From: Thermoplasmata archaeon
GTDB taxonomy: Archaea > Thermoplasmatota > Thermoplasmata > Thermoplasmatales > Thermoplasmataceae
Reading direction: 5' to 3'
Assembly (NCBI GenBank): GCA_021794355.1
Contig: JAJYRA010000029.1
Location: 1 to 64,000, forward strand
Length of the DNA stretch: 64,000 nt
Part shown: positions 24,609 through 30,355 of the stretch, one piece after another
Position numbering within the stretch: the first letter of the stretch is position 1
Layout: each line of letters opens with the position of its first letter
Notes under the pieces: model-generated
What the model saw: the letters and a program-made list of their open reading frames with translations, nothing else
What the model was told of the DNA's origin: nothing
Database searches by the model: none
Translations under genes and position numbers: made by a program

Positions 24609-25306
24609 GGCCTTTTCTAAAAACCCCTCTTCTTTCTCCGATCAGGTCTGATTGTATTTTGAGGTTACATGCTCTAGAGAATGCGTATTACAGCGGAGAA
24701 ATGCGTAATTGATTACAGATAGCTTTATACATAATATCATGATTCTTATCTATGGACATAGTAAATTACGACCTACATGAGAAATACGATCAGTTGAAGA
24801 AATTTGGCGATAAGCTTTCTGACATAAAGGATATGATAGATTGGGATCGGATCAAACCGATGCTTGATGATCTTTACAAGAACCATACAGGGGTGGGAGG
24901 TAGACCCAACTTTGATCCTGTGTTCATGGCCAAGATCCTGTTCCTTCAATCTCTATACAGTCTGGTAGATGAGACCATGGAGAAGGAGGTCTATGATCGG
25001 ATCTCCTTCATCAACTTCCTAGATTATCCTGAATCGATCCCAGATTCAAGGACAATCTGGCTCTTCAGGGAGAGATTGTCCTCAACAGGAAAGGACAAGA
25101 TGATCTGGGAGGGGATATGGAAAGAGTTTGAGGAGAAGGGCATAAGAGTAAAATCGGGTACAATACAAGATGCATCCTATGTAGAATCGGATCCGGGAAA
25201 GCACGGAAAGAAGAAGCCACCTCCCATCGATCTAAACAGAAATTTATTGAAATTCTTTCGAAAAGATAAGTAATTGGTGAAAATTTAATAGTTGTTAGAA
25301 ATTGTC
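24609..25306 (+). mobile_element. Remnant of an IS5-like element with TIR-like ends
   Basis: About 700 bases carry a truncated transposase (24752-25273). The right end GTTGTTAGAAATTGTC (25291-25306) matches the terminus TTTTTAGAAATCGTC of the 133-bp elements in this window at 13 of 15 positions. On the left, CCTTTTCTAAAAACCC (24611-24626) resembles the opposite terminus. The element lost the catalytic C-terminal half of its transposase by internal deletion. The left end is less certain because the matching stretch is AT-rich. Confidence 0.5.
24752..25273 (+). pseudogene. Truncated IS5/IS1182-like transposase (N-terminal DUF772 part)
   Basis: A 173-residue frame with the N-terminal transposase pattern: a DWDRIKPMLDDLY stretch, then GGRPNFDPVFMAKILFLQSL and the conserved FLDYPESIPDSRTIWLFRERL. 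It ends shortly after GTIQDASYVESDPGKHGKK, where the first catalytic Asp (DAS) of the DDE centre is present. The rest of the catalytic domain is missing, replaced by PPPIDLNRNLLKFFRKDK before the stop. It cannot be an active transposase. Confidence 0.85.
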
Positions 25307-26574: not shown

Positions 26575-26799
26575 TCTGACATATCTCCCCCGCATAGAAG
26601 AGAGGAGTTTTTTGGAATGAACTCAGCAATAAGCAGAATGTTTTTTGCACTCTCTCCACTTGTGGGAACCAGTCTATTGACAATGTTCATTTTTGAACCA
26701 ATGCTGACATGGATCTTCCTCTCGGTTGTTTCTGTTGCCATTCTCGCAGGGATTCTGTGTATTTATAGGCAAATAACCAGAAAAGAGTTATCTACCTAA
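26575..26799 (+). pseudogene. C-terminal relic of an MFS transporter
   Basis: The frame reads SDISPPHRREEFFGMNSAIS and then RMFFALSPLVG, the loop 10-11 and TM11-12 pattern of an MFS carrier, and ends with ILCIYRQITRKE. It is open from just before 26575, upstream of the first ATG (26617), but is cut off by a stop further upstream. Only about 75 of some 400 residues remain. With the IS110-like relic it marks this stretch as decayed accessory DNA. The bases from 26800 to 27013 show no further gene. Confidence 0.7.
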
Positions 26800-27013: not shown

Positions 27014-27856
27014 TTACAGCATTGCCAGAAATTCGGAAACGAGCATGAAACCTCTCTGTTCAAAAACTTCCCTTTCCTCTTTATCAACTGGTTCCAGGAA
27101 ATCTGCATATAAAAATGGGCCTTCTGATTTTTCGCTAGAAACCATGTTGCCCATTCTTTTTAAGGATTCTTGGATCTGTGTTTCATCCACGAATGGTTTA
27201 AATGCAGTTGCAACCTCACTTACTCCATTTCCATAATGATCCAACACTGAGACTATGTCATAAGCATCTTTATGTTTATAGCGATCGCCCAGTGCGATTC
27301 CTTTCGTGCCAAGACACCCCACTACATCAAGCATTTTAAAATCAATTTCTGTCATAGCACCATTAGGCATCTCTCCTTTCATGCGGTACAGGAAATTATG
27401 CTGTAAACCCAATTCTGCTCCCAACATAGTGCGTGCCCTCAGATCAGATTGCACTCCTCTATGGCGATGTTCCCTTCCCTCTCTCAGTTCCGGAGACGTG
27501 AGAAAATCCACCGTTATATCTCTATAAATATCATCCTTTCCCCTGATACTCCGCTCAAATGTGAACTGCTTACCGGGAGTTTGTTTCCACCCCGTTTCCA
27601 TTATCAATTCCACAATTGTCTGGTATTCATCATCCTCAACACGATCGGGATCCACAATAAGATCTATATCGATTGAACCGACATGCCTGAAATTGTCTTC
27701 CGGTGTCTTGTGTGACTCTAATAGCAGATATGGCACCCAACCTCCAATTAAAACGATGGCTTCCTTGTAAGGCCTTAGTGTGCGAATTAACTCAACGAGG
27801 GCACTCTTTGAGGTGACGATTAATTGATCTTCAAAAATCCGATGAAATACGTGTCT
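27014..27856 (-). CDS. AbiEii-like nucleotidyltransferase (toxin), start unclear
   Basis: This is a nucleotidyltransferase of the AbiEii/AbiGii kind. The conserved LIGGWVPYLLLE and then HVGSIDIDLIVD form the GG...DxD core of the fold. Conventional gene calling would begin at GTG 27736, but that removes the GGW motif. The same frame is open and homologous-looking upstream to 27856, directly after the TAA of the AbiEi-like gene, and contains no ATG, GTG or TTG in those 120 bases. The two genes share one reading frame. AbiEii toxins of type IV systems modify tRNA or GTP metabolism; the partner is the antitoxin. I annotate the full open stretch. Confidence 0.72.
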   Translation of the reverse strand, partial: RHVFHRIFEDQLIVTSKSALVELIRTLRPYKEAIVLIGGWVPYLLLESHKTPEDNFRHVGSIDIDLIVDPDRVEDDEYQTIVELIMETGWKQTPGKQFTFERSIRGKDDIYRDITVDFLTSPELREGREHRHRGVQSDLRARTMLGAELGLQHNFLYRMKGEMPNGAMTEIDFKMLDVVGCLGTKGIALGDRYKHKDAYDIVSVLDHYGNGVSEVATAFKPFVDETQIQESLKRMGNMVSSEKSEGPFLYADFLEPVDKEEREVFEQRGFMLVSEFLAML

Positions 27857-28939
27857 TTAAGAGGTATCTACCTCACTGATGTTTTTCTCAAGAAGTTTTT
27901 CTGCCTGCTCTCGCCCACGAGCCGGGTAAGTGAATAGATCTATATAGAGTTGGATGTTACTAACCACTTTTACGCCCCTGATTTCCCGGAAATCCATAAA
28001 GATGCCATCGTCATAGGGCTCAAAAATCCTGATGTTGGCTCCAGATGTTGTTGGTCTAAGATCAAGTTTCCTTACCAAATTATCTATGTCGCCGGATACG
28101 TATACCCAGACATCGTTATACCTTACAAATGGTGATACCATAGATGCCCCAGCCATTCCGGTTAATGCATATTTCAAATCCAGTTCATCACCTACCTTGA
28201 CGACTTTTGATATTATTTCCTCCGGGTTTTTTGCAAAAGAGAAGAAACCAGTTGATCTGCTCTTTTCTACTGTCCAGTTTGATGCCCAATCCTTGAGAAG
28301 TCTTTTCGGATCTACTAGTTTAATGCTCTTATTTATTTCTCGTGAGATATAGCCTTTATCTTCAAGCTGATTTATGACAAAGTAAACTCCGGCAGGGCTC
28401 ATTCTACAGATACTGGCAAGTTCTGTAATCTTCCACTGAGTATCGGGAGCATTAAGGATTGTTCGTATAATGCGAGTCGCTTTGGGCGCAAATATGCCTC
28501 TACTGAGACGCCTCTCTGTTTCCCTCTCATTGTTGCTGATACGATCCACGAGAACTGAGCCAAATTTTAGATATACATCCCCTATTAAATCAATATAACC
28601 GATGTTTTCCGAGGTTAAAATTTCCCTTGACTTTTCACCAACATAAGGGGCAGCGAACACTGGGTATTTTTCCTTATCATTTCCAACCAATTTCCTTAGT
28701 TGATAAATGGAACTTTGGACAATTCGCGGCTCTCCACTGGATTTAACCTCAATAAGTAGGCATTTTTCAAGATCTCCAATTCGAGCTTTGACTATGACAT
28801 CAGCGCGACTACGTTTGCCTATTGATACTTCTAAAGATATGTCTTCTATGTTCAAATTTGGCAGCAGAATGGGTAGTTTTTCAGCGAGCTTAGCAATGGT
28901 CTCCCGCTCATTCATCGGATGATATTTAGTGGAATACAT
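27857..28939 (-). CDS. AbiEi-like winged-helix antitoxin/regulator
   Basis: A 360-residue protein with two parts. Residues about 20-120 resemble a restriction-endonuclase-like fold (ADVIVKARIGDLEKCLLIEV and KSSGEP). Residues about 165-220 form a winged helix (WKITELASICRMSPAGVYFV, LEDKGYISRE). The remainder matches the C-terminal domain of AbiEi-type regulators. In type IV toxin-antitoxin systems AbiEi represses its own promoter and antagonises AbiEii. A perfect 16-bp palindrome lies four bases upstream of the ATG. A second ATG at 28915 would place that palindrome over the promoter, as expected for autoregulation. Confidence 0.75.
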   Translation of the reverse strand: MYSTKYHPMNERETIAKLAEKLPILLPNLNIEDISLEVSIGKRSRADVIVKARIGDLEKCLLIEVKSSGEPRIVQSSIYQLRKLVGNDKEKYPVFAAPYVGEKSREILTSENIGYIDLIGDVYLKFGSVLVDRISNNERETERRLSRGIFAPKATRIIRTILNAPDTQWKITELASICRMSPAGVYFVINQLEDKGYISREINKSIKLVDPKRLLKDWASNWTVEKSRSTGFFSFAKNPEEIISKVVKVGDELDLKYALTGMAGASMVSPFVRYNDVWVYVSGDIDNLVRKLDLRPTTSGANIRIFEPYDDGIFMDFREIRGVKVVSNIQLYIDLFTYPARGREQAEKLLEKNISEVDTS

Positions 28940-28942
28940 ATT

Positions 28943-28958
28943 TTTACCAATTGGTAAA
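28943..28958. promoter_or_regulatory. Palindrome upstream of the AbiEi-like gene
   Basis: TTTACCAATTGGTAAA is a perfect 16-bp palindrome, and GGTAAATTACC overlaps it to form a second, shorter one. Its place immediately before the AbiEi-like start suggests an autoregulatory operator. Confidence 0.5.
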
Positions 28959-29013
28959 TTACCTAATTGTATTCAAAATGGATGTCGATTCAAAATATTA
29001 ATGGTTTTCTATG

Positions 29014-30288
29014 TCAAGCTTGAAGTAACCATTTCCACAGCGGTATTGCTTTAATAGCGGTCCCCTCATAACTGAAAATATCTTCATAATTCCACGTTAT
29101 CAGAATAAGTTTAGTGCAATGGAGCAGAGCCGACGCACTAATGAGCGATTTTATTTCCCTTTTCTCTATGTCATCCTTGCTTTCTGAGTATGTCACATTG
29201 ATAAGCTCTTTCACATCTATTCCTGATTTTAAAACGAAGTCAACTTCATGATCGTTGTAGTCCTTGAAGTAATATATTTCCAAGTTTCCCATAAAATAGC
29301 TTCTCCTCCTCAAAAGATCAATGTAGACGATGTTTTCCATCATATTCCCAATGTTTTCGGTTGATCTTGATGATGCATGATTGATCATGCCGGTATCAAT
29401 GCAGTATGTTTTCTTTACGCTTTTCTCTATTTCCTTTGGCTTGAATGAAAATTTCTTCAGTTGAAGAATCAGGTAGGACTCTTCCAGATACGATAAATAG
29501 TTTTTTGCTGTGTGGTCGCTTTTCAATCCAAAATCATTCTTTATTTTATTATAGCTTACGTATTTCCCGGCATTTCCGATCATGGTCATGGCTATCTCCC
29601 TGAAAGTGCTCTTATACGATATGTTGAACCTGGAAATTATGTCCTTTTCCACGAGGTCGTCATATAAACTCTTAAGGTAAGGCCCTGGGCTCTCCCCGCT
29701 CACTACTTCCGGGAATCCGCCATTGTTCTTGTAATTGTCTAGCTCATGCTTAATCAAATTCTCATCCCTTGTTGTTTCCGGGTTTCGATTAATCTTCTTT
29801 GAAATTAAGTGTTCCCTGAAACTGAAAGGGAAAATTTCAAGCGGAATATGCCTTCCTGTGAGATGTGTAGATAGCTCCTTACTCAACAACCTGGAGCTTG
29901 AACCCGTAAGAAATACATTATAACCATTCCTGTGCAGCTTGTTTACAAATAATTCCCATCTATCCACATTCTGAATTTCATCAAGAAAAATTATATTGAA
30001 CCTCCCGTTAAGTTCAACCAACATTGAAAGTATATCGTCAGGATCGGCGTTCAGAAGAATTCTCTCATCAAAATTTACATATCCCACATTTTTTCCTGAA
30101 AGCATTGAAGCCGTAAACGTTGATTTTCCAGACCGCCTCACTCCAACAATGGTCTTGATTAAAGTGCTCTTTTCGTAGATTTCATAGTTCTTGCTGAACT
30201 CACGCTCAATATAGTTATCCTTGTGGATAATATGCTGGAATTCTCCCTGTTGGTCCCGAAGTATAGTCTTCACATTCATTGCATTCAT
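29014..30288 (-). CDS. DUF4143-type AAA ATPase
   Basis: A 424-residue ATPase of the AAA_14/DUF4143 type. Walker A is GVRRSGKSTF, Walker B is IIFLDEIQN, sensor 1 is LTGSSSRLLS, followed by TGRHIPLEIFPFSFREHL. The C-terminal DUF4143 part includes YFKDYNDHEVDFVLKSGIDV, which carries an endonuclease-like D-E/D-x-V pattern. Family members are abundant in archaea; their function is unsettled, and many lie near mobile DNA. ATG 30288 is preferred over the TTG at 30354: a TATA-like TTAATACTAAAC lies about 20 bases before it, and a palindrome covers the TTG. Confidence 0.85.
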   Translation of the reverse strand: MNAMNVKTILRDQQGEFQHIIHKDNYIEREFSKNYEIYEKSTLIKTIVGVRRSGKSTFTASMLSGKNVGYVNFDERILLNADPDDILSMLVELNGRFNIIFLDEIQNVDRWELFVNKLHRNGYNVFLTGSSSRLLSKELSTHLTGRHIPLEIFPFSFREHLISKKINRNPETTRDENLIKHELDNYKNNGGFPEVVSGESPGPYLKSLYDDLVEKDIISRFNISYKSTFREIAMTMIGNAGKYVSYNKIKNDFGLKSDHTAKNYLSYLEESYLILQLKKFSFKPKEIEKSVKKTYCIDTGMINHASSRSTENIGNMMENIVYIDLLRRRSYFMGNLEIYYFKDYNDHEVDFVLKSGIDVKELINVTYSESKDDIEKREIKSLISASALLHCTKLILITWNYEDIFSYEGTAIKAIPLWKWLLQA

Positions 30289-30339
30289 AACACGAAGTTT
30301 AGTATTAATCTTCGCATTATCAGTGCAAATAATGCCAAC

Positions 30340-30355
30340 ATTGGTTATAACCAAT
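30340..30355. promoter_or_regulatory. Palindrome upstream of the DUF4143 ATPase
   Basis: ATTGGTTATAACCAAT is a perfect 16-bp palindrome 52 bases upstream of the preferred ATPase start. It shares the half-sites TTGGT and ACCAA, in inverted order, with the palindrome at 28943-28958. Confidence 0.4.

Follow-up and report, generated by a model that had tools for sequence, protein, structure and literature searches.

Does a toxin gene that runs on in the frame of its antitoxin, separated from it by a single stop codon and provided with no usual start codon, represent an unusual way to limit a toxin, or a toxin that has been lost? The question is raised by a locus within a 64,000-nucleotide stretch of DNA (the window) from a draft genome in 89 contigs of an acid-loving Thermoplasmata archaeon. 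The first-pass annotation described an AbiEi/AbiEii-like pair with this arrangement and proposed a non-standard toxin start, stop readthrough, or silencing by loss of the start. Our preferred reading, to which we give a probability of about 0.84, is that the locus is an archaeal AbiE-like operon whose toxin was recently inactivated by loss of its start plus a +1 frameshift. The features on which the argument draws are as follows.

27857..28939, minus strand: AbiEi-type antitoxin gene, 360 aa, intact (open reading frame, PF09952 match, identity to relatives)
27014..27862, minus strand: AbiEii-like nucleotidyltransferase toxin, probable pseudogene by start loss plus +1 frameshift (frameshift-aware alignment with intact homologs)
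27858..27860, minus strand: ancestral toxin start site, TTA in the window and TTG in intact homologs
27829..27839, minus strand: GATTTTTGAAG, five-T run whose additional T shifts the toxin frame by +1 at codon 8-9
27737..27751, minus strand: LIGGW, nucleotidyltransferase motif I (motif definition from PMC3985639)
27659..27682, minus strand: VGSIDIDL, motif II carrying the catalytic DxD, undamaged in the window copy
27257..27304, minus strand: KGIALGDR...HKDAYD, motifs III and IV, intact in the window copy
28943..28958: putative palindromic operator TTTACCAATTGGTAAA, immediately 5' of the antitoxin ATG
28970..28977, minus strand: TATA-like box TTTGAATA

The junction between antitoxin and toxin

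The two reading frames are adjacent on the same strand, and their assignment to an AbiE-like pair in one frame holds. The antitoxin frame (28939-27857, minus strand) ends at the TAA at 27857-27859 and matches PF09952 (AbiEi_2; E 1e-10, 42.5 bits against a cut-off of 21); past the TAA this frame continues without a stop for 280 codons (27856-27014, minus strand). The 280-aa toxin translation matches PF08843 (AbiEii) weakly (E 1e-3, 19.6 bits, under the 22.5 cut-off), and an intact homolog (L004) exceeds that cut-off at 25.1 bits. Motifs I-IV (hG[G/S]...DhD, K..R, +DxxD) are present as LIGGW, VGSIDIDL, KGIALGDR, and KDAYD, and the K-x6-R spacing matches K173/R180 of AbiEii, in which the substitution G49A, equivalent to a change of the motif I glycine, abolished toxicity (PMC3985639). 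The toxin had no match in NCBIfam and none among solved structures searched by sequence, and PADLOC returned weak matches only; a predicted model of low confidence (pLDDT 66) matched the fold of polymerase-beta-type nucleotidyltransferases without significance.

The first in-frame ATG, GTG, or TTG after the TAA is the GTG at 27734-27736 (minus strand). The 40 codons between the two contain no in-frame ATG, GTG, or TTG, only the near-cognates ATT (three) and ATC (two); the first-pass statement that this interval lacks usual start codons is thus correct in frame and incorrect out of frame, where four TTG and one GTG occur. Because LIGGW (27751-27737) lies just upstream of the GTG, a product starting there would be without motif I, and homologs start about 41 codons upstream of this GTG rather than exactly at it, as the annotation had considered.

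In the archaeal family, intact toxins start at a TTG whose last two bases also begin the antitoxin stop (TTGA), and every assessable family toxin except that of the window has TTG at this position, within TTGA; in the FK3 outgroup the overlap is ATGA, with an ATG start. The window instead has TTAA, at a point where the natural toxin frame began one base before the antitoxin stop and in another frame. The comparison indicates that a G-to-A transition turned the antitoxin stop from TGA to TAA and in doing so destroyed the toxin start. About 20 bases past the overlap the window carries an extra T (GATTTTTGAAG, against GATTTTGAAG in the relative G031), which falls at toxin codon 8-9 and is followed by no further lesion in the 281 codons of the frameshift-aware alignment. 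It is this inserted T that places the remainder of the toxin in the antitoxin's frame, so the shared frame and the missing start are two lesions, not a device. We found a toxin in the antitoxin frame in no homolog; the window copy alone has the arrangement. Silencing by start loss, one of the options originally proposed, is therefore borne out by homologous loci, the lost codon being a TTG; the +1 insertion had been missed.

The toxin sequence has otherwise changed little. It is 82% identical to its closest intact homolog, gives a pairwise dN/dS near 0.1 when compared with relatives, and departs from the family at 3 of 135 conserved sites, compared with 4-9 departures at 139-144 sites in intact family copies. 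The toxin sequence is thus not eroded, and we take the loss to be recent. A toxin tree did not resolve.

Decay of the pair at related loci

To place the window copy among its relatives, we searched 77 genomes of the family and read the genes in a frameshift-aware manner. The window genome itself holds a second pair (G000:C71), with a toxin 75% identical to that of the window, in which both genes are intact and the toxin starts at the TTG within TTGA, the TGA being the antitoxin stop. Both genes are likewise intact at G008. At seven loci (the window, G047, G015, G014, G031, G001, and G004) the toxin is broken beside a full-length antitoxin, and outside the window the lesions differ: TGA at codon 26 (G047), TAG at 41 plus a frameshift with deletion (G015), a -1 at 96 (G014), TAA at 93 plus a frameshift at 121 (G031), multiple frameshifts with a 3' part that can no longer be aligned (G001), and truncation to the first ~31 codons (G004). 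Elsewhere, G044 has two frameshifts in the toxin and a truncated antitoxin, G030 and G038 hold remnants of both genes, G047:C34 is a single lone toxin fragment, and G053 is interrupted by a contig end. Since most relatives are metagenome assemblies, misassembly could account for some of the lesions; the genomes of G001 and G015 each consist of a single contig.

Toxin-only breaks outnumber antitoxin-only breaks 7 to 1 (binomial p 0.015 given gene lengths). As background, the neighboring DUF4143 ATPase is interrupted by a stop in 11 of its 92 copies in the family, and none of the PF08843 AbiEii matches listed for the same genomes contains one. Broken toxins (8/11) exceed broken ATPases (11/92) with a Fisher p of 4e-5, a rough comparison because the background counts cover stops within matches and leave frameshifts out. 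The single antitoxin-only break, at G017 (L003 776-1021), has an intact toxin and an antitoxin frameshifted at codon 279, and speaks against a strict toxin-first order. G017 reverses the common pattern, and the lost coupling might silence its toxin. A selection test comparing G001 with G000:C71 ran into too few changes and apparent recombination.

An AAA_14/DUF4143 ATPase (29014-30354) lies directly upstream of the window antitoxin. G030, which belongs to another genus, has both flanks, an ATPase 92% identical to that of the window and the sequence beyond the toxin; between them there remain only the operator and an eroded 5' end of the antitoxin, its start lost and its body stopped, the toxin having been deleted. 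The shared flanks indicate that G030 is the orthologous place at a later stage of decay. At the other homologous loci tested, similarity to the window does not extend past the pair and its promoter, consistent with these having moved together. Beyond the toxin, what survives of an MFS transporter gene at 26617-26799 is its C-terminal part, and G030 has the complete gene (L039 1851-3044). A small reading frame at 24752-25273 encodes a DUF772 transposase domain and is probably left over from an IS element; the neighborhood itself is thus decaying.

The retained antitoxin and its promoter

The 1083-bp window antitoxin contains no lesion, is 75-81% identical to relatives, and probably remains functional beside the dead toxin. 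An N-terminal PD-(D/E)XK nuclease-like domain is followed by a winged helix and a C-terminal AbiEi_2 domain, with fold matches to NucS/EndoMS and MarR/IclR. The resemblance to PD-(D/E)XK nucleases covers residues 1-140: the top Foldseek matches are NucS/EndoMS (E 2e-4, but TM about 0.2-0.4), and one alignment extending from archaea to Alphaproteobacteria shows no variation at D47 or E64-V65-K66; in a separate comparison, one archaeal copy carries D64. This nuclease-like domain offers one possible reason for retention of the antitoxin. The domain (D47, E64xK66) is common to plasmid-borne bacterial homologs of the antitoxin. NCBIfam gave weak HTH matches only, a sequence search of solved structures found generic winged-helix proteins, and a pattern scan of viral contigs found no antitoxin relative.

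All nine family loci that were aligned have a TATA-like box and, ending just short of the antitoxin start codon, a TTTACCNNNNGGTAAA palindrome. The box reads TTTAAATA in most homologs and TTTGAATA in the window, where the promoter may consequently be weaker than in relatives. The operator arms are retained in every aligned family copy, those with dead toxins included. The window genome contains two exact TTTACCNNNNGGTAAA sites, both at AbiEi starts, and no site for the reversed control pattern; family-wide, most sites lie at AbiEi/AbiEii loci. A wider regulon was rejected for perfect-arm sites, given only these two in the genome. Because the promoter palindrome is conserved and its exact sites in this genome are confined to the two AbiEi starts, the antitoxin likely represses its own promoter, on the model of AbiEi and Rv2827c (PMC3985639, PMC7319586). 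The two operons have operator arms in common, which suggests that each antitoxin could act at the other's operon as well as at its own.

Origin and meaning of the probable toxin loss

In the ancestral design, represented by intact relatives, a promoter carrying a palindromic operator would drive the antitoxin, whose winged helix probably binds that operator, and the toxin would be translated from the TTG over the antitoxin stop, so that toxin synthesis would follow that of the antitoxin through coupling. In the window, the G-to-A change in the overlap removed the toxin start and left the antitoxin stop unharmed, and the T insertion ~20 bases further shifted the toxin frame; either lesion by itself should abolish the toxin product. 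Production of the antitoxin probably continues, and the protein could repress the intact paralog or neutralize its toxin, giving cross-protection. The two lesions, the intact paralog, the conservation of antitoxin and operator, and the differing lesions elsewhere are the observed part of this account.

It is improbable that the lesions are sequencing or assembly errors and that the true genome has an intact toxin. The genome is a draft and the remainder of the toxin shows unusually little change, but two independent errors would be needed in ~25 bases, one of them a substitution that happened to keep the antitoxin stop, next to a 1083-bp antitoxin free of lesions, and comparable lesions occur in the single-contig G001 and G015. 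Slightly less probable still is low-level toxin production, limited by readthrough of the TAA to give a fusion or by initiation at an in-frame ATT or ATC, the regulatory devices raised in the original annotation. The frame is open across the whole toxin and recently constrained, ATT and ATC codons lie in frame, and a toxin sequence in such good condition would also be consistent with weak expression through some unseen route. Against both devices, no homolog carries its toxin in the frame of the antitoxin, the intact ones start at the overlap TTG, and relatives' toxins are broken in several other, unrelated ways that point to inactivation rather than shared control.

Two further alternatives concern the frameshift and seem to us very unlikely. 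Reversible phase variation by slippage of the T run would accord with its length of three, four, or five T among relatives; the run is short, its repair would not bring back the start codon, and the lesions of other broken copies lie elsewhere. A programmed +1 frameshift, with a slippery Phe codon before a stop, is permitted in principle by TTT followed by TGA, which allows a perfect slip into the toxin frame, but initiation at TTA would also be required, and the arrangement is absent in all homologs.

Recent toxin inactivation remains our preferred reading, and it places the locus beside known systems. In type IV AbiE modules, the toxin inhibits growth and the antitoxin neutralizes it without binding. 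The window shares with AbiE the antitoxin-toxin operon order, an antitoxin with an AbiEi_2 domain and winged helix, a DUF1814-type nucleotidyltransferase with motifs I-IV, and an inverted-repeat operator (here predicted) at the promoter, and differs in its longer motif I-II spacing (x23 versus x15), the extra N-terminal nuclease-like domain of its antitoxin, and its dead toxin (PMC3985639). Proteobacterial plasmids, such as those of Sphingomonas panacis (NZ_CP014169) and Mesorhizobium (NZ_CP080526), encode pairs annotated AbiEi and AbiEii whose antitoxins are homologous over 97% of their length and whose toxins lie directly downstream and overlapping, although identity is 26-32% and the toxins are mostly annotated as intact. 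Solitary antitoxins left by toxin decay are also known, and anti-addiction or regulation of related modules has been proposed for them (review PMC7354431; E. coli, PMC10790755). The window resembles these in its intact antitoxin beside a toxin lost through start loss and frameshift, and differs in being archaeal and type IV-like, with a dead toxin that is still recognizable and an intact paralog in the genome.

The window thus probably holds a recent toxin pseudogene and a functional antitoxin, a combination of an already known kind; the new and moderately interesting point, suggested by comparing loci, is repeated toxin-first decay in one archaeal family. A less likely reading is that AbiEi has gained a use by itself in these archaea, through its nuclease-like domain or by neutralizing toxins of related incoming modules, with the toxin repeatedly discarded while antitoxin and operator are retained; the window would then be one instance of this. 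Taken by itself the window is a pseudogene, but the related loci together form a natural series of the death of an archaeal addiction module: mostly toxin first, by differing lesions, while the antitoxin and its operator persist, until both genes are reduced to remnants. A toxin-first order is the prediction for a truly toxic toxin, and the presence of dead and intact copies in one genome makes cross-protection by a leftover antitoxin testable.
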